Shown: one piece after another, positions 5,635 through 62,183 of the stretch
How the letters are laid out: every line of letters starts with the position of its first letter
Numbering within the stretch: position 1 is the first letter of the stretch
Source of the DNA: Bacteroidales bacterium
GTDB taxonomy: Bacteria > Bacteroidota > Bacteroidia > Bacteroidales > UBA10428
DNA: 64,000 bases
Direction of reading: 5' to 3'
Assembly: GCA_016934395.1 (NCBI GenBank)
Contig: JAFGSZ010000013.1
Coordinates: forward strand, 62,001 to 126,000
Program-made: the position numbers and the translations under genes
Notes under the pieces: generated by a model
What the model was told of the DNA's origin: nothing
The model's input: only the letters and a program-made list of their open reading frames with translations
Databases searched by the model: none

Positions 5635-5811
5635 TTTTTATTTGATTGATAGTTTATTCAAAATAATTTTATCATACATCAGTATTTAAGAATTAAACAC
5701 TAAATTTAAATATTAAATCAAATATCACTATTATCAGGTTAAAATACAATTCTGAGACATTATTCTGATCATTTTAAAAAATAGTAACTTAATAAGTTCA
5801 ATAGCTTGTTC

Positions 5812-6546
5812 ATGAGAATAATACTTATAATCACCTTATATTATGCTGGAATCGGCCTTTGGGCAAAGCCTTCCAAACCTGCATATACAATTTCTGAAAA
5901 CCTGGAACTTTATCAAATATCAGCCAACGCATATTTACATATATCGTATACAAATTCCGAGCAATTTGGCCGGTTTTCTTCTAATGGAATGGTTTATGTT
6001 GTGAAGGGTGAAGGAGTGTTGATTGATACCCCAACGGATACTCTACAGACCAGAGAGTTGCTCGATTTTCTGCAAGACAGCCTGCATATTTCAATTACTG
6101 GATTTATAGGAACACATTGGCATAATGACTGTATTGGCGGATTACAAACCATACATCAGCAGGGTATTGAGTCTTATGCCTGTGAACTCACCCAAAATAT
6201 TGCAGAAAATAAAGGACTCCCGGTTCCCAAAATTGGCTTTAAAGATTCCCTGACTATTTTCCTGCAAGGACAGCCAATAAAATGTATGTACCCTGGTGCC
6301 GGCCATACACTAGATAATATAATTGTCTGGTTACCTGAAAGTCGAATATTATTTGGAGGTTGCCTTATTAAATGTCTTAGCGCCCAAGGATTAGGAAATA
6401 TTATCGATGCTGATATAACAGCATGGCCTGAAACACTGAAAAAAATAGAAAGGATTTATCCTGATGCTCAAATAATTATTCCCGGACACGGTTCCTGGGG
6501 TGGTATTGAGCTGGTGGAACATACATTGAGCCTGTTTACTCCTTGA
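5812..6546 (+). CDS. Subclass B1 metallo-beta-lactamase, CfiA/CcrA-like
   Basis: A 244-residue secreted enzyme starting at the ATG at 5812 (an upstream in-frame TTG at 5806 is less likely); the first ~18 residues form a signal peptide. All subclass B1 zinc ligands are visible: His102, His104 and Asp106 in THWHNDCIGG, His165 in PGAGHTLDN, Cys184 in FGGCLIK, and His226 in IPGHGSWGG. Lys187 and Asn196, which contact the beta-lactam carboxylate and carbonyl in this subclass, are also present. The stretches GLPVPKIGFKDSLT, IIVWLPE and DADITAWPETL are strikingly close to CcrA/CfiA of Bacteroides fragilis as I remember it. Hydrolysis of penicillins, cephalosporins and carbapenems in the periplasm is expected from the family; the actual spectrum is inference. 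No IS element adjoins it. Confidence 0.9.
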   Translation: MRIILIITLYYAGIGLWAKPSKPAYTISENLELYQISANAYLHISYTNSEQFGRFSSNGMVYVVKGEGVLIDTPTDTLQTRELLDFLQDSLHISITGFIGTHWHNDCIGGLQTIHQQGIESYACELTQNIAENKGLPVPKIGFKDSLTIFLQGQPIKCMYPGAGHTLDNIIVWLPESRILFGGCLIKCLSAQGLGNIIDADITAWPETLKKIERIYPDAQIIIPGHGSWGGIELVEHTLSLFTP

Positions 6547-13182: not shown

Positions 13183-15861
13183 TTACTTTAAGGCTACATC
13201 TTTATTTTTCAGATTTAATTTATCAAACTTCAGCATATTCCTATGGTGCCCATTGTACTTCATATCAACGGTATGACAAACCTTACAATTATTTTGTGTG
13301 GCAATACTCCCAGCTATACCCTGATATTGCAAAGGTTGCATATTATCCCGATCTCTGCCGTATTTATTTATTGCCGGATAAATGGCATGGGGCGAACCAT
13401 GGCATGCAGCGCAATAAACGCCGTTATTATCAACAGTATTCCGGTAAAGTGCTGCTCCTCCCGGAACCCAGTTATTAAACCCATTTACGCCCTTTCCTTC
13501 TTCCCTGATATTAAAATTTCCATGACATGCTTTACAATCCGGTTCCATCAACCAGGGCATTCTTGGGTTGACTTCAGCCTGTGTAGCGACTTTTCTCGGA
13601 GACAGGTTAGCCAGTAATTTATCTGCAGCCGGTTTCTTTTTAATTTTTTCATTTTTTACTAAAGCTACTGCATGATCTTCAATGGTTCCATGGCAATGCA
13701 CACAATTTAAACCGCGTGTATTATGTCGCCCCCGGCTGCAGGAAGTATTACCCAGAACACGTGCCGGATGACATAAAGCACAGGCATCGGCATCCATATC
13801 GGGAAGCACCTGGGCATGAAAACCGTGAACGGCTGATGAAAAATTTAAAATAGTTGGATTTCCCGGTGCACCAAGTGCGGGATCTTCATGGCAAGACTGG
13901 CATAAGGCAGGTTTCCCGTTAAGCGCGTTATTAAGCAGACTTGTCTTATTCATCCTGTCGTGAACCCTGAGAATATTTATTGCCGTTTCTTCAGAAAAAC
14001 CAGAAATATTATTCACCCTCCATGCTCCTCCATGGCAGTTTCTGCATCCCATTTCCGTTGAAGTAGGTGTAATAGCGCGTGTTTCTGCCAGTTTATTCCT
14101 ATTATTGTCTATGGCCCTTATAGTAAATGAAGGATAAGGATTGTACGTATTGTTGTCGTTATAAGCAGTTACCGGTATATATTCCGCCATAAAAGCCCCC
14201 TTGTTTTCATTAAATTTAAGCGATCCGGATATGCCATTTCCTGCTAATCCATAACCTTCCTGAAATTTGGCACCATAAACTATTTCCGAATATTGCCAGA
14301 AATCCACATGGTTCTGTGGGTTTCTGAATCCTTCTTCTACTTCATATTCAAGAGTTACATTTGTATTTATAATTTCAGGACGCTCTCCCCGTTTAATTAG
14401 CTGTGCATATAATGTATTGGCCGGTGGGAGAAAAGAAAAATATTTATCGTTATCAGAAACACAATGCATCCCCAGATCGTTCCATACCAGAAGAACGTAC
14501 TTGTCTTTCCGGCTGTTAAATTCAGATGGTTTGGATTCCAGGGATTGCACATTTACTATCTCTTCTTTGGGAGCAGGCTTACCGTGAACACTACGCAAAA
14601 TATAAGCTGAAAGCGCAGCTTTTTCATCCTCCGTTCCGAAAAATCCGGGCATATAATTATTTATTTTGTTCAATCCACTAAGTTTAGCTATCAATCCTCT
14701 TTCAGTAAAATACAAGGTTTTATTAAAAATCTGGTTCCTTCCCGTTAGCGTATGACAGGAACTGCATTCAAGTGAAAAAATTTCTTTTCCGTCATTCAAT
14801 AATTTCTCACCAGGATTTATATTTTCATTTGAAATCCATTTTGCAGTATTTAAAATCCCTTCTTTGTTTATGGCGTCCGTATTACTTTTATAAATGGAAT
14901 TTGAATACAAGTATTGGTTAATCAGATAAGGCCTGCGTGCGAATTCGCGAATATATTCAAAGCCCCCGAACCATATAAGTCCTACTAAAATAAACAAAAC
15001 GGTGGCCATCTTTCGAACAGTATTTGGAAACCGGATAACAAAAAACACAGCAAGAATAAAAATCAGGATGGACGCATAAACAAATATATTGATTGCTTTA
15101 ATCGCTTCAGCGTTCGAAACCAGAAGGTTGTCAAGCGATGTTTCGGGAACTATTTTAAAATACCAGAATCCACTCAGAAGAATTAGTATAAATGGTAAAT
15201 AGATCCATTTTAGACAGTAATTCACCAATGTATCCCATATTGGGGTATTCTTATTGGATAAAGAGGTAAGCATCCCAAAAATGCCGGCTATAAACAATGC
15301 AATACCGGTTCGGAAGAATAAAGAAGGAAAAAATCCGGGATTAAAAAAGCCATGCCAGAAATTTTGTGTTTCGAGCCATTTACCGGGAGTAAGCATAAAA
15401 GATAAAATTCCATTAATAACAAACAGGCTGAGCCAGGCAAATATAAAATAGAACCATCCGATGGCAAGATGTGATTTGGAATCCATTTTGCCAAAGCGAT
15501 TATGGTAAATCAACAGGGCAATAATTTCTCCGGTAAAAAACACCCATTCAGTGGCCCAACCAAAAACAAAATTATGAATTAACGAAGAGGTACCTGCCGG
15601 ATTCACAAGCGATATTATAAACCAGATACCCACACCGGAAACACCACCGAAAACCAAAGTCAGTAAAAGGAAAAATTTTGTGTGAGACTGCACATAAGCC
15701 AGAAGTGCAGGATTATTTGTCCTCAGGGCTTTTCTTTCCGTTAACACAAGGAATAATCCCCCGCCAACAGCAAAGTGGGCAACAAAAGCATGGAGTATAG
15801 CAATGATGGCTATTAAAGTACCACCGGTTATTGAATGCAATTCCCAGATTGGATAATTCAT
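13183..15861 (-). CDS. Cytochrome bd-like membrane core fused to an octahaem cytochrome c
   Basis: An 892-residue fusion. Residues 1-305 contain about eight membrane helices resembling cytochrome bd oxidase subunit I: AILHAFVAHFAVGG (His24 and His29) and WATEWVFFTGEIIAL (Glu105 and Glu112) look like haem and proton-path positions, by analogy only. The periplasmic remainder has eight CXXCH haem c sites at 366, 606, 654, 694, 720, 776, 817 and 859. The first lies in a mono-haem domain with a possible Met404 ligand; a haem-free stretch (about 450-600) separates it from seven clustered sites. It shares a one-base junction with the upstream polytopic gene, so the two probably form one complex. Quinol or O2 chemistry, or electron export to a periplasmic acceptor, is inference. 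Confidence 0.8.
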   Translation of the reverse strand: MNYPIWELHSITGGTLIAIIAILHAFVAHFAVGGGLFLVLTERKALRTNNPALLAYVQSHTKFFLLLTLVFGGVSGVGIWFIISLVNPAGTSSLIHNFVFGWATEWVFFTGEIIALLIYHNRFGKMDSKSHLAIGWFYFIFAWLSLFVINGILSFMLTPGKWLETQNFWHGFFNPGFFPSLFFRTGIALFIAGIFGMLTSLSNKNTPIWDTLVNYCLKWIYLPFILILLSGFWYFKIVPETSLDNLLVSNAEAIKAINIFVYASILIFILAVFFVIRFPNTVRKMATVLFILVGLIWFGGFEYIREFARRPYLINQYLYSNSIYKSNTDAINKEGILNTAKWISNENINPGEKLLNDGKEIFSLECSSCHTLTGRNQIFNKTLYFTERGLIAKLSGLNKINNYMPGFFGTEDEKAALSAYILRSVHGKPAPKEEIVNVQSLESKPSEFNSRKDKYVLLVWNDLGMHCVSDNDKYFSFLPPANTLYAQLIKRGERPEIINTNVTLEYEVEEGFRNPQNHVDFWQYSEIVYGAKFQEGYGLAGNGISGSLKFNENKGAFMAEYIPVTAYNDNNTYNPYPSFTIRAIDNNRNKLAETRAITPTSTEMGCRNCHGGAWRVNNISGFSEETAINILRVHDRMNKTSLLNNALNGKPALCQSCHEDPALGAPGNPTILNFSSAVHGFHAQVLPDMDADACALCHPARVLGNTSCSRGRHNTRGLNCVHCHGTIEDHAVALVKNEKIKKKPAADKLLANLSPRKVATQAEVNPRMPWLMEPDCKACHGNFNIREEGKGVNGFNNWVPGGAALYRNTVDNNGVYCAACHGSPHAIYPAINKYGRDRDNMQPLQYQGIAGSIATQNNCKVCHTVDMKYNGHHRNMLKFDKLNLKNKDVALK

Positions 15862-55961: not shown

Positions 55962-58900
55962 TTACCTGTCCATAAATACAAAACGTTTTCTCAAAGCTTG
56001 TTTTTTATCGCGTTCACCTTTTCGCGAAAAAATTGCATACACCACAGGAACAATAACCAGGGTTACCAGGGTTGAAAAAACCAGTCCGCCGATCACCGTA
56101 ATTCCCATTGGGCTCCACAATTCAGAACCTTCTCCGGTACTCATGGCCAAAGGCAACATACCCAGAATTGTAGTCATAGCTGTCATTAAAACAGGCCGTA
56201 ACCTCGATTTTCCCGAAAGTGCTATAGCTTCGTTGAGGTCATAACCCCTGTCGCGCATAAGATTAATATAATCCACAAGCACAATACCGTTTTTAACCAC
56301 AATACCCACAAGCAATACCGCCCCTAATGCGGCTATTACGCTAAGAGTGGTGTTTGTAAAAAATAAAGCCAAAATTACCCCGGTAAAAGCAAAGGGAATA
56401 GAAAACATAATTATGAAAGGCATGGCAAATGATTCAAACTGGGAGGCCATAACCAGAAAAACCAGAACCAGGCTTATAATTAAAAGTAACCCCAGGTCCA
56501 TAAAAGATTCTACCTGATCTTCATAAGCTCCGCCAACATTAACTACAACTTCCTGAGGAAAATCAATACTTTCTAATTCTGTATTTATTTTTTTGGCAAG
56601 TTCACCCAACGATACTCCAACAGGTTTTACAGATACTGTAACCACCCGTTCTTTTCGTTTTCGTTCAATATTAGGAGGTCCCCAATACTCTTTCACTTCT
56701 CCCAGTTCTTTTAATTTAATTTGCTGACCGGTTGGCGTCATAATTGTGATTTGTTCAAGGTCGGAAATTGAATTCCGGAACTCTTCCTTAAAACGCACCA
56801 CAATATCATATTCATCACCCTCCTCTCTGAACCTGGATGCGGTCAATCCATCTACCCGGTTGCGAATATTGGCAGAAACCATGGCGCTGTTCAAACCATT
56901 TTCAGCGAGTTTTCCCTTATCCAGTACTATTTGCAGTTCCGGTTTATCTGCTTTTCTGCTTATCTGTACATCCTGAGCGCCTTCAATTTTTTCAATTTTA
57001 CCTTTAACCTCTGCAGCCAGTTTATTGGTGATATCAAAATCGTAACCGAAAATTTCAATATCTACCGTATTGCTTGTGCCCCCCATACCGCTGCTGGATG
57101 TGGTAACATTATAATTTATAATTTCCGCAAACTGGTCCATCTGCTTACGCAGGTCATTGGCAATATCCCAAACACTGCGATCGCGTTCTTCGATTGAAGT
57201 TAATCGCATCATTAAGTTTATCATATTTGAACCTGTCTGGCTAAACAATGAAAAAATTCCTCCTTCATCATCAGATCCGGAAGAAGCAGAAAGAATAGTA
57301 ACTTCAGGATACCGGTCATGAATAATTTGTTCTAATTGCCGGGTGACTTTCATTGTTTCTTCAACCCTCAGCCCGGTCTGAAGTTCAACAGATGCCATAA
57401 TTCTGCTTTCATCCGATTCGGGCATAAAATCGGTACCTACATATTTAAATAAAAATAGTGAAGAAATAAATAAAACTAAGGCGATAATCATAACATACCG
57501 CTTACAATGTAAGGCCCACCGTATGGTTTTTTCATAAAATGCGTCCAGCTTGTTGAGAATTTTTTCAATGGTATTCTCATAACTGAACTTTTTCCTGTTT
57601 TCCGTTTTTGCTTTCAGCCGTAATAATTTAGATGCCAGCATCGGGGTAAGAGAAATTGCAGCCATGGTAGAGGTTACAACAGTTATGGTTACAATCCATC
57701 CCAGCTCTTTAAACAACACACCCGTCATTCCCGAAACCAGTGTAAGCGGCATAAATACGGCAACAATTACCAGGGTGGTGACAATGACTGAAAGCCAAAC
57801 CTCGTTGGTGGCATAAATTGCCGCCTCTCTCGGACTGCTTCCCCGTTCTATATGTTTGGTAATATTTTCAAGCACTACAATTGCATCGTCTACAACCATC
57901 CCAATTGCTATAGACAATGAGGTAAGGGAAATAACATTTACGGAACTGTCTGTAATAAACAGGTATATAAATGCCACAATCAGGGATATTGGAATAGTGA
58001 GGACAATAATAAATGTAGCCCGCCATCTGCCCAGGAAAAACAATACCACCAAAACCACAAATATAAGGGCCCACATAAGGGTTTCAGACAGGTTGCTCAC
58101 AGAATCTTTGATAAATGTTGATGTATCGAGTATTTGCTGAATTTTAATATCGGGAGGAAGATCTTTTTCCAATACCGCAAGTTTCTTATGCACCTGTTTT
58201 GCAATTTTAACCGTGTTGGCGCCCGACTGTTTCATTACAAACATCCGGATACCGGATTGACCGTTTATTTTTTCATCAAGTGATAAGTCTTTAATGCTGT
58301 CCTGAACCTGTGCAATATCGTGTATATATACAGGATTGCCGCCATAGTTGCCCACAACAATATCACTTATTTCGCGACTTTCTGATAATTCCCCTTCAAT
58401 GCGCAGTTGGTAATCCATTTTACCCATCTTTACATTTCCCGAAGGCATATTCAGGTTTTCGGCAGTTATCACATTACCTATCTGCTCAATAGTAAGGTTA
58501 TACGCATCAAGCCGTTGCGGATCTACGTCAACATATATCATACGTTTAGGCGCTCCAATCATACTTATTGACCCGATACCGTTAATCCTGTTTAACGGAT
58601 TTATAATCTTTTCTTCGATAATTTTGGCCAGCCCCGGGTAACTTTCATCAGCTGTAATGGCATAAAACACAATAGGCATCATGCTGGTGTTAAACTTAAA
58701 TATAAAGGGCCGGTCGCAACCTTCGGGAAGATAATCGAAAATCCGGTCTACGGCATCGCGAATATCATTCGAGGCCTCATCAAGGTTTGCCTCCCATTCG
58801 AATTCAAGGTTTACAATAGATAAATTATCGGACGAAACCGAGGTAATTTCCTTAAGATTGTCTACAGTGTTGAGTGCATCCTCAATGGTTTTTGTAATAT

Positions 58901-59084
58901 TTGTTTCTATATCAGAGGCATTGGCTCCCGGATAGGTTGTCATTACCGAAATATAGGGAGGATTCATTTCAGGATACAAATCTATAGGGATTTGCATCAG
59001 AGAATATATACCCACAACTATAATGGCTGCAAAAATCATTAAGGTTGTGATGGGCTTGTTTACTGCACTTTTATAAATACTCAT
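55962..59084 (-). CDS. RND efflux pump inner-membrane transporter (AcrB/MexB-like)
   Basis: 1040 residues with the duplicated RND layout: 12 membrane helices, two large periplasmic loops (about 35-335 and 560-865). The proton-relay pair Asp-Asp is in GMVVDDAIVVLENI in helix 4. Typical segments: MQIPIDLYPEMNPPYISV, TYPGANASDIE, LTPMLASKLLRL. The pump takes hydrophobic or amphiphilic compounds from the periplasm or membrane and exports them by proton exchange. The adaptor, outer-membrane channel and TetR repressor are encoded upstream in the same operon. Drug versus metal substrate cannot be told; the sequence lacks an obvious heavy-metal (CusA) Met cluster. Confidence 0.95.
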   Translation of the reverse strand: MSIYKSAVNKPITTLMIFAAIIVVGIYSLMQIPIDLYPEMNPPYISVMTTYPGANASDIETNITKTIEDALNTVDNLKEITSVSSDNLSIVNLEFEWEANLDEASNDIRDAVDRIFDYLPEGCDRPFIFKFNTSMMPIVFYAITADESYPGLAKIIEEKIINPLNRINGIGSISMIGAPKRMIYVDVDPQRLDAYNLTIEQIGNVITAENLNMPSGNVKMGKMDYQLRIEGELSESREISDIVVGNYGGNPVYIHDIAQVQDSIKDLSLDEKINGQSGIRMFVMKQSGANTVKIAKQVHKKLAVLEKDLPPDIKIQQILDTSTFIKDSVSNLSETLMWALIFVVLVVLFFLGRWRATFIIVLTIPISLIVAFIYLFITDSSVNVISLTSLSIAIGMVVDDAIVVLENITKHIERGSSPREAAIYATNEVWLSVIVTTLVIVAVFMPLTLVSGMTGVLFKELGWIVTITVVTSTMAAISLTPMLASKLLRLKAKTENRKKFSYENTIEKILNKLDAFYEKTIRWALHCKRYVMIIALVLFISSLFLFKYVGTDFMPESDESRIMASVELQTGLRVEETMKVTRQLEQIIHDRYPEVTILSASSGSDDEGGIFSLFSQTGSNMINLMMRLTSIEERDRSVWDIANDLRKQMDQFAEIINYNVTTSSSGMGGTSNTVDIEIFGYDFDITNKLAAEVKGKIEKIEGAQDVQISRKADKPELQIVLDKGKLAENGLNSAMVSANIRNRVDGLTASRFREEGDEYDIVVRFKEEFRNSISDLEQITIMTPTGQQIKLKELGEVKEYWGPPNIERKRKERVVTVSVKPVGVSLGELAKKINTELESIDFPQEVVVNVGGAYEDQVESFMDLGLLLIISLVLVFLVMASQFESFAMPFIIMFSIPFAFTGVILALFFTNTTLSVIAALGAVLLVGIVVKNGIVLVDYINLMRDRGYDLNEAIALSGKSRLRPVLMTAMTTILGMLPLAMSTGEGSELWSPMGITVIGGLVFSTLVTLVIVPVVYAIFSRKGERDKKQALRKRFVFMDR

Positions 59085-59121
59085 TGTTATTTCTCCTATT
59101 ATTAAATCTCGCGAAATGCAA

Positions 59122-60195
59122 TTATTCTGATACTACTTTTACCTCAACACCATCTAAAAGTCTTGACTGGCCTGCTATGATCAAATGGTCTCCCTCTTTA
59201 ATTTCGTTTGAAATGATTTCAACCTGATCATCATAACGTTTGCCCAGCTTAACCGAAATCCTTTTTGCAATACCATTTTTTTCAAGAAAAACATACCGTT
59301 CGTTTGATCCCTGCAGTTTTAAAATGGAAATTGCCGGAACCACGAGGGCCTGTACTTCGCTAATTTCAATGGATACCCGGCAGAACATTCCCGGACGAAG
59401 ATTTTTATAATCATTTGGCACCTGAATTTCCACCTGGAAAGAACGTGTTGCCGGATTTACAGTAGGATGAATCCGAAAAATTTTTCCCGTAAAGGTTTTA
59501 TCCGGGTAAATATCACTTTCAATTCTGGCTGTCATACCTAAAGAAATCATTGGAAAATAATTCTCCGAAATACTTACTATTGCTTTTAGGGGGTCCAATT
59601 GCACAATATATAAAATGGCCGCTTTTCCAGCAGTAGTGTTGGGAGCTCCTGAATATAACTCGCCATCTTCGAAATATTTTTCTGAAATAATTCCGCTAAA
59701 AGGAGCCCTTAATTGTGTATTCTCTTTTAAAAACTCAACATTGGACAACGCTATTTCATATTGTGCTTTAACCTGATCGTATTGTTGTTTTGAAATACTC
59801 CCAACCTTATTCAGCGTGTCTAACCTTTTAAAATCGGTTTCCACTGTATTTAGTTGCACTATAGCCTGATGCAACTGGGTACGGTCCATCTGCACCAGAA
59901 CATCGCCTTTAGAAACCTTTGAGCCGGTTTCTACATAAATTTTCTCTATACGTCCGGGGGATGAAGGAGCCAGATAAACCTCCTCAAAAGCCTTTAATGT
60001 AGATGATTGTTCAATGGTACGGCCTATGGATTGTTTTTCCAATTTTAAAATATTTACCATTTCAACCTTTTTTCCCGATAGACTATCCGGCAACACTGTT
60101 TCTTTAGCAGCAATTCCGCTTTCTGATTTTGATGAACAACCAGTTACAATCAAAACTATTATGTAAAAAGTGGGTACTATTAAAATCCGTTTCAT
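59122..60195 (-). CDS. RND efflux periplasmic adaptor (membrane fusion protein), lipoprotein
   Basis: 357 residues. The signal ends in a lipobox (LIVTGCSSKSES, Cys20). Then come a beta/lipoyl domain (VYLAPSSPGRIEKIYVETGSKVSKGDVLVQMD), a short alpha-hairpin (HQAIVQLNTVETDFKRLDTL...), the second lipoyl half (LRAPFSGIISEKYFEDGE) and beta-barrel and membrane-proximal domains. The adaptor links the RND pump to TolC. It lies 37 bases upstream of the pump gene and 39 bases after the tolC-type gene. Confidence 0.93.
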   Translation of the reverse strand: MKRILIVPTFYIIVLIVTGCSSKSESGIAAKETVLPDSLSGKKVEMVNILKLEKQSIGRTIEQSSTLKAFEEVYLAPSSPGRIEKIYVETGSKVSKGDVLVQMDRTQLHQAIVQLNTVETDFKRLDTLNKVGSISKQQYDQVKAQYEIALSNVEFLKENTQLRAPFSGIISEKYFEDGELYSGAPNTTAGKAAILYIVQLDPLKAIVSISENYFPMISLGMTARIESDIYPDKTFTGKIFRIHPTVNPATRSFQVEIQVPNDYKNLRPGMFCRVSIEISEVQALVVPAISILKLQGSNERYVFLEKNGIAKRISVKLGKRYDDQVEIISNEIKEGDHLIIAGQSRLLDGVEVKVVSE

Positions 60196-60234
60196 ATTAT
60201 TATTCTTTATTATTTTGTTTTTCTAAATCAATAT

Positions 60235-61536
60235 TTAAATTTTGTTTAAAAGTCTGTCCAGTTCGAGTTGTGCCTGGAGTACCTGCATTAATGCATTAAT
60301 ATAGTTATTCTCGGCCTGCAGATAATTATTGTTTGCAGTAGTAAGATCGAGACTGGAAACCATACCCTGCTGATATTTTAAAAAAATGTTATGGTATACC
60401 CGTTTGGCAACTTCCACATTTTTTTCCTGGCTTTCATATTGCTCGAGGGCCGTAGACAAATTAAACCGGTATTGTTTCTCTGCCATTAACAATTGATCCT
60501 CGAGCAAAGATTTATTATTTAATGTAGTTTCATACTGTATTCTCGCCTGGTCTAATTTTGCTTTTCGCATACCGCTTGAAAATATCGGAAGACTCAGATT
60601 CAGACCAACCATGTTGGGCGGCGTCATATCAAAATTAGTGGTTAAAAATTTATAGGTGTAATTATAAAAACCTGAAATTGTGGGCAGATACCCCATTTTT
60701 TCAAGCGTTACCTGTTTTTCAGAAATTTCCTCCTGTTTACCCATCAATTGATAATCAATATTTTCATTCAGATTAAAGGGCTGGACTATGGTGGCATTAA
60801 AATCCTGCTTTTCCATAACCTTGTCCAATGATTCGGTTAGTAATATTTTTGTATTACCATCAACCCCGAGCTGAAGCCGTAACAGGTTATATGCAAGTTC
60901 TATTTGCCGTTCTGCCGATTTAACTGCATTTTCAATCTGAGTAACCTGAACAGATAACTGGTCGACATCCGTAACCTCCAGAATTCCTGCCTGGTACATC
61001 GCCTGTGTTTTATCCAGTGCATCATATACATTTTGAAGATTTTTTGTATAGCTGTCCTTAAGTTTTTCAGCAACAAGAATATTATAGTATGAGCTTATTA
61101 CCAATTTCTTAATATCCATCCCTGTTTTCATATAATTTTTTTCAGAAAGACTTTTATAAATCTTTGCCGTTTGAAGCCCCACAATGTAGCTTCCGCTGAA
61201 AATGAGCTGCCCTAATGAAACATTCAGGTTGCTTGTAGGTTTTGATTCAATTTTTGTAGCGGGCATACTTTCATTAAACCGAAGTTCGATGGAATATCCC
61301 AGAAAATTGGAGTAATCTACTGTAGCATCAACCTGGGGAAGCCCGCCTGCCAGTGTCTGCCAGACCTGTTTTTGAGCTTCGTCTACCGCCAGTTCAGCAT
61401 TTTTTAATGTTTTATTATACTCAAGCGCATATTGCTGTGCACTATCCAGACTAAGGTATAACACCTCCTGTGCATCAAGAAAACTGCTTCCCGAAAACAG
61501 AAACAGTATCACTGCCAAAACTCTAATCCTATTCAT
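60235..61536 (-). CDS. TolC-family outer-membrane efflux protein
   Basis: Start chosen at the ATG at 61536 (MNRIRVLAVILFLFSGSSFLDAQE), giving a proper signal peptide; the frame extends to 61554 upstream. 433 residues with two repeats of the TolC fold, long coiled-coil helices (SLDSAQQYALEYNKTLKNAELAVDEAQKQ; KAKLDQARIQYETTLNNKSLLEDQ) and a conserved GLNLSLPIFSSGMRKAKL. It forms the trimeric exit duct of the tripartite pump. It follows tetR by 35 bases. Confidence 0.93.
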   Translation of the reverse strand: MNRIRVLAVILFLFSGSSFLDAQEVLYLSLDSAQQYALEYNKTLKNAELAVDEAQKQVWQTLAGGLPQVDATVDYSNFLGYSIELRFNESMPATKIESKPTSNLNVSLGQLIFSGSYIVGLQTAKIYKSLSEKNYMKTGMDIKKLVISSYYNILVAEKLKDSYTKNLQNVYDALDKTQAMYQAGILEVTDVDQLSVQVTQIENAVKSAERQIELAYNLLRLQLGVDGNTKILLTESLDKVMEKQDFNATIVQPFNLNENIDYQLMGKQEEISEKQVTLEKMGYLPTISGFYNYTYKFLTTNFDMTPPNMVGLNLSLPIFSSGMRKAKLDQARIQYETTLNNKSLLEDQLLMAEKQYRFNLSTALEQYESQEKNVEVAKRVYHNIFLKYQQGMVSSLDLTTANNNYLQAENNYINALMQVLQAQLELDRLLNKI

Positions 61537-61571
61537 ATACACATTATTAACCATTAGTTTAATCTTTATTT

Positions 61572-62183
61572 TTATTCTTTAACTTCTTCGAAATATTGTT
61601 CAATTAATTGTTGTCCTTTTTTTGTACAAACACCGATAAAATAGGGCATAATTATATTTTTGAAAATTTCCTTCTCAGAATACTGAGTTTTTGGGAACAC
61701 TGCTTCATTATGAATAATATTCATCAGTTCATGAACATAGTTGTTTACCAGATCAGCATCCAGGTCCTTTCGAAAAACTCCCTGATCAATACCTTTCAAA
61801 ATTAAGGTATGGGTAATTGTATAATCTCTTATTTTATTCTTGGTAAAAAACAATTCGTGAACTTCAGGATAATATTTTCGGATATCTTCAAAAAAAAGCG
61901 GAGATATTTTTCTTTTTGTATCTTCTCCCCACTTTCCAAAAGTGTAAATTGCTTCAACAACATTTGTTGCACTGTTCACAATCTCTAAAGCCTGGGTTTT
62001 TTTATTCGTTAAAAAAAATTTCATTCCTACTTTAAGTAAATCGTTTTTATCCTTAAAGGTTTCATACAAAGTCCGTTTCGAGATACCAAGATGTCCGGCA
62101 ATCTGATCCATGGTTACACTGCGGATTCCGTAAATCACAAATAATTCGAATGCCTCTTTGATAATGCGATCCTTCAACTCCAT
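61572..62183 (-). CDS. TetR family repressor of the efflux operon
   Basis: 203 residues. The N-terminal helix-turn-helix is clear (YGIRSVTMDQIAGHLGISKRTLYETFKDKNDL, about 18-50). The C-terminal helical ligand domain is not assigned to a subfamily. First gene of the operon, so it probably autoregulates and is released by a pump substrate. A 7-bp inverted repeat (62218-62243) lies about 35 bases upstream of the start. Confidence 0.92.
   Translation of the reverse strand: MELKDRIIKEAFELFVIYGIRSVTMDQIAGHLGISKRTLYETFKDKNDLLKVGMKFFLTNKKTQALEIVNSATNVVEAIYTFGKWGEDTKRKISPLFFEDIRKYYPEVHELFFTKNKIRDYTITHTLILKGIDQGVFRKDLDADLVNNYVHELMNIIHNEAVFPKTQYSEKEIFKNIIMPYFIGVCTKKGQQLIEQYFEEVKE

Follow-up and report, generated by a model that had tools for sequence, protein, structure and literature searches.

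The window that we analyzed, a stretch of 64,000 nucleotides from a draft Bacteroidales genome, contains an intact gene for a subclass B1 metallo-beta-lactamase. The gene occupies positions 5812..6546 on the forward strand, running from an ATG at 5812 to a TGA at 6544-6546, with an alternative TTG start at 5806, and its reading frame encodes 244 amino acids without internal stops. The protein scores 265.6 bits (E = 3.1e-79) against the NCBIfam subclass B1 model NF033088 (bla_subclass_B1), for which the cutoff is 200, and its Pfam match is Lactamase_B. Among proteins of solved structure, its top sequence relatives by phmmer are entries for CcrA of Bacteroides fragilis (best E = 2.4e-73). The first codons (5812..5868, forward strand) specify a probable N-terminal signal peptide (MRIILIITLYYAGIGLWA...), modeled as a helix at residues 2-15 followed by a linker of lower confidence. 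Because this segment is hydrophobic and has no lipobox cysteine, the protein is probably exported.

The predicted structure leads to the same assignment. An AlphaFold2 model built with an alignment of 53 homologs had a mean pLDDT of 95.9 and a pTM of 0.89. When the model was compared with the PDB using Foldseek, the first matches were the CcrA entries 2bmi, 1hlk, and 1a7t, with an rmsd of 0.7-0.8 Å over approximately 217 columns and 46-47% identity (0.7 Å for 2bmi). These were followed by other B1 enzymes of Bacteroidota, for example ECV-1, CIM-2, and MYO-1, and all 50 of the listed matches were B1 enzymes. Since the model was itself built on an alignment of homologs, it shows that the protein is compatible with the B1 fold but is no proof of activity.

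The zinc site and predicted function

Alignments revealed that both metal sites are complete. The Zn1 site consists of H102, H104, and H165 (H116, H118, and H196 in BBL numbering), and the Zn2 site consists of D106, C184, and H226 (D120, C221, and H263). On the forward strand, the H-x-H-x-D motif that supplies H102, H104, and D106 is encoded at 6115..6129, H165 at 6304..6306, C184 together with K187 (Lys224) at 6361..6372, N196 (Asn233) at 6397..6399, and H226 at 6487..6489. In B1 enzymes, Lys224 binds the carboxylate of the substrate, and Asn233 has been described as critical for imipenem resistance conferred by IMP-1 (review PMC4212336). In addition, three sequence blocks are common to the window protein and CcrA: GLPVP..GF.DSLT, DNI.VWLP...ILFGGC..K, and DAD.TAWP.TL. 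A sequence-only reading of this DNA had described a class B1 enzyme with all zinc ligands, the drug-positioning Lys and Asn, and several blocks matching CcrA. Given the six ligands, Lys224, Asn233, and the match to the B1 model, that description of the gene was correct.

Two further cysteines stand out in the alignment. Directly after Lys224 lies C188 (6373-6375), a cysteine that is unique to the window protein at that column among 121 aligned B1 proteins, and C124 (6181-6183) occupies a position where most relatives have Asn.

Ligands and L10 residues are as in CcrA, so the standard di-zinc mechanism is most likely. If the predicted protein works like CcrA and other B1 enzymes, it would be exported to the periplasm, where a hydroxide held by Zn1 (H116/H118/H196) and Zn2 (D120/C221/H263) would attack the beta-lactam carbonyl. 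Lys224 would grip the carboxylate of the substrate and Asn233 would aid its binding, with the outcome that penicillin, cephalosporin, and carbapenem rings would be opened. Judging from its residues, the protein very probably hydrolyzes carbapenems, and we infer that it binds zinc, that it is hydrolytically active, and that the gene is expressed.

It could be argued that the B1 fold and metal site have been kept while the main substrate is something other than a beta-lactam, or that in its host the enzyme has little activity or is silent. When 21 new B1 genes were tested in E. coli, 18 hydrolyzed imipenem and three were inactive, at least two of which belonged to group B1-3 (PMC5637372), the group into which the window gene falls. 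Furthermore, B. fragilis cfiA usually gives resistance only once an upstream insertion sequence (IS) supplies a promoter (PMC9472255, PMC9138018), and no obvious promoter was found here. The expected place for one is the divergent intergenic region of 177 bp between a ThuA-domain gene and the B1 gene (5635..5811). Scans of this region for the Bacteroidota-type promoter TTTG-N-TANNTTTG and for sigma-70 promoters gave no more than chance-level matches, and the region contains no IS. Nevertheless, the residues on which beta-lactam binding and catalysis are known to depend have all been retained, Lys224 and Asn233 included, and we regard a weak, silent, or differently directed enzyme as unlikely.

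Chromosomal setting

The window comes from a 242-kb contig in a draft genome of 155 contigs that is 98.6% complete. On the strand opposite to the B1 gene, its neighbors encode a ThuA-domain protein and a GFO/IDH/MocA oxidoreductase; further genes encode CorA, followed by a WYL-domain regulator, a DUF3795 protein, an Nramp-type transporter, and an S9 peptidase. Housekeeping genes occupy the 19 kb preceding the window, among them pth, rplY, prs, yihA, pdxJ, uppS, bamA, and the genes for NAD kinase and glutamate racemase. The open reading frames that were scanned lay within approximately 6 kb upstream of the B1 gene and at intervals over the other 57 kb of the window, and none of them was a transposase, integrase, or phage gene; no Rfam family or tRNA was found in the window. 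The B1 gene thus has an ordinary chromosomal setting, just as the sequence-only reading had said when it noted the lack of an IS element. A prophage or integron location was considered and rejected.

Elsewhere in the window are other features of note. A cytochrome bd subunit I-like part is fused to multihaem cytochrome c domains in a protein of 892 amino acids (13183-15861). Repeated cassettes of a MacB/FtsX-type permease and an ABC ATPase alternate with pairs of a sigma-54 response regulator and a histidine kinase (22484-54221). Finally, the reverse strand at 55962-62183 encodes an AcrB-type RND efflux pump, a membrane fusion protein, a 439-amino-acid open reading frame, and a TetR-type regulator.

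Could the gene nonetheless have been brought in recently by a mobile element? Its locus differs from those of its relatives, and it is missing from most genomes of its family: a general B1 search gave a strong match in 7 of the 22 other family genomes (G001, G005, G006, G010, G014, and G019 above the B1 cutoff; G011, of the long type, slightly below). When related B1 loci were compared, none had flanks in common with the window gene, and most lay at differing chromosomal sites. Neighbors were alike in two cases only, L118 with one WYL-type regulator and L171 with a weak match to an S9 peptidase, and homologs of CorA and ThuA in the family marked no common site. However, the neighboring genes are likewise patchy among relatives, and therefore the missing synteny is not specific to the B1 gene. 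The composition of the gene (GC 39%, GC3 31%) is within the range of its neighbors (GC 31-42%), the scanned neighbors include no transposase or integrase, and the best relatives that we found are only about 50% identical. Likewise, relatives of the protein were absent from the phage records and viral contigs that were searched. Recent acquisition is thus quite improbable, and a chromosome-native gene is the reading that we prefer.

Relatives and the question of cfiA

Genes of this kind recur across Bacteroidales, but none that we found is close to the window gene. A relative at E ≤ 1e-30 was found in 30 of 295 Bacteroidales genomes (about 10%), and a scan of one genome per species yielded at least 226 relatives. 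The top 80 of these were 40-50% identical to the window protein across the aligned segment. The best plasmid match was CfiA2 on pBFUK1, at 44.5%. Because none of its relatives is close, the window gene would be a separate, new B1 family, of an ordinary kind, by the rule of at least 70% identity used in PMC5637372.

We placed the gene using three trees that agreed at large scale, one built quickly from 121 proteins and two built with more care from 39 and 31 proteins. In the 39-protein tree, most Bacteroidales genes fell into a single clade together with CfiA and the window gene (support 100/100), and this Bacteroidales-dominated clade was separate from the IMP/GIM/DIM, VIM, and BlaB/IND-type rows. 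Group B1-3 of PMC5637372 was represented in the tree by CfiA and MYO-1 out of that paper's B1-3 sequences, and through the clade shared with these two the window gene fits group B1-3. Within the clade, the window gene had a long branch (1.05-1.55) and grouped with three genes of its own bacterial family (L002, L004, and L007), L128, MYO-1, and the long-type genes L010, L133, and L134. At 91/96, this sub-lineage placement has moderate support.

Several of the relatives merit description in their own right. Two from the window's family, L004 and L002 (regions L171:9847-12369 and L172:10124-12673), occupy the same chromosomal site, which suggests that the gene has been passed on vertically in at least one of the family's lineages. 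By sequence reading, the gene pair beside them resembles the electron-transfer and catalytic subunits of dihydroorotate dehydrogenase (pyrK-pyrD). The long-type genes L010 (1114-2205, reverse strand), L133 (192-1511, forward strand), and L134 (1116-2162, reverse strand) score above the cutoff of NF041269. All three have approximately 100 additional C-terminal residues, and two of their zinc ligands are altered, with Arg or Ser at the H116 position and Asn at the C221 position; judged from these residues, their activity appears doubtful despite curation as beta-lactamases. In L118 (1498-2238, reverse strand), the protein is CfiA-like apart from an Asp aligned at the Zn2 ligand C221. Finally, five B1 genes nested within the Bacteroidales clade come from drafts labeled Planctomycetota (L077), Verrucomicrobiota (L069), Fibrobacterota (L028), Delongbacteria (L046), and Spirochaetes (L101), reflecting either horizontal transfer or wrongly binned contigs.

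The sequence-only reading had gone further, calling the enzyme CfiA/CcrA-like and suggesting that its gene may be ancestral to clinical cfiA or serve as its reservoir. There are reasons why such an environmental origin might be entertained: CcrA is the best solved match to the window protein, the CfiA model is its second-best family model, and both genes belong to one well-supported Bacteroidales-dominated clade. The likeness holds for the active site, the fold, and that clade. It does not make the gene a CfiA, since the two proteins are 43-44% identical and the window protein scores 244 bits on the CfiA model NF000322, which is 306 bits short of the cutoff of 550; the B. fragilis chromosomal gene scores 596. 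The approximately unbiased (AU) test rejected a pairing of the window gene with CfiA in both the 39-protein set (p = 0.0065) and the 31-protein set (p = 0.0157). This pair was the hypothesis that the sequence-only reading had supplied; the wider groupings with CfiA-side genes, which were also rejected (AU p = 0.023 and 0.025), were picked after the first tree had been seen. Moreover, CfiA has nearer homologs elsewhere in our set (L026, L077, L075, and L099, 57-58% identical to it), and the GNAT/XAT genes that accompany the cfiA element (PMC9472255) are absent beside the window gene, where ThuA, GFO/IDH/MocA, CorA, and WYL-regulator genes are found instead. The sequence-only reading had also named a position far from CfiA in a tree as evidence that would count against it. 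Such distance was found at the level of sub-lineages, with both genes still inside one larger Bacteroidales clade. The window gene is a distant cousin of CfiA, neither a close reservoir nor an ancestor of cfiA, and we consider direct ancestry very improbable.

Taken together, we hold with high confidence that the window gene encodes a di-zinc B1 enzyme, predicted to be exported, that is native to its chromosome and belongs to group B1-3, but in another sub-lineage than CfiA and with no close part in the origin of cfiA. A broader and tentative possibility, which we think rather less likely than its opposite, is that the gene belongs to a distinct, under-described B1 sub-lineage of Bacteroidales in which two known resistance determinants, plasmid-borne MYO-1 and possibly the long-type CrxA, arose independently of CfiA. 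Uncultured Bacteroidales might then hold a second mobilizable reservoir, and some members of the sub-lineage would have gained a C-terminal domain as their zinc site was partly lost.

Intrinsic genes of the carbapenemase type are already known to be common on the chromosomes of Bacteroidales, and our findings add one more. They also make a case against assuming that every environmental gene resembling CcrA is ancestral to clinical cfiA, and mobilization is better sought in the sub-lineage that contains MYO-1 than in a link to CfiA.

Comparison with known B1 enzymes

Other assignments were considered and set aside. Membership in the BlaB/IND/MUS group was rejected, with 168.7 bits on NF012146 versus a cutoff of 270 and the BlaB/IND-type rows forming a separate supported clade. 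The long-type B1 family was rejected as well (221.7 bits on NF041269 versus a cutoff of 350), the window protein having 244 residues and no tail. B2, B3, and glyoxalase-type metallo-beta-lactamases were ruled out by ligands and model scores, which are those of B1.

Among Bacteroidota B1 enzymes with solved structures, ECV-1 (Echinicola), CIM-2, CJO-1, and the Dyadobacter CcrA-like enzyme come from other hosts and are 36-39% identical to the window protein. The titles of CIM-2 and CJO-1 describe them as membrane-bound, whereas the window protein has no lipobox cysteine. The long-type enzymes L010, L133, and L134 share its sub-lineage but differ in their C-terminal extension and in lacking the H116 and C221 ligands that the window gene has kept. 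CrxA of B. xylanisolvens is possibly of the long type as well, a likeness drawn from the description of its C-terminal tail (PMC9472255).

The closest relatives are the chromosomal B1 genes of the window's own family (L007 from G001, L002 from G019, and L004 from G010). These are 44-47% identical and have a full zinc site, but they lie at loci different from that of the window gene, and L002 and L004 have Arg at position 224. MYO-1, from a Myroides odoratimimus plasmid, belongs to the same sub-lineage and shares the B1 ligands and Lys224; unlike the window gene, it is plasmid-borne and has Tyr at position 233, and its identity is 37% (39.6% over the core). With CfiA/CcrA of B. fragilis, the window protein shares subclass B1, the zinc ligands, Lys224, Asn233, Cys121, a near-identical predicted backbone (0.7 Å), and the same large clade. 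It differs in overall identity (46-47% even over the structurally aligned core), in falling under the CfiA family cutoff, in the rejection of their pairing, and in a locus without the neighbors of the cfiA element. Group B1-3 was defined as the chromosomal B1 genes of Bacteroidetes, CcrA among them, together with the plasmid-borne MYO-1 (PMC5637372), and this description already covers genes of the kind that we found in the window.
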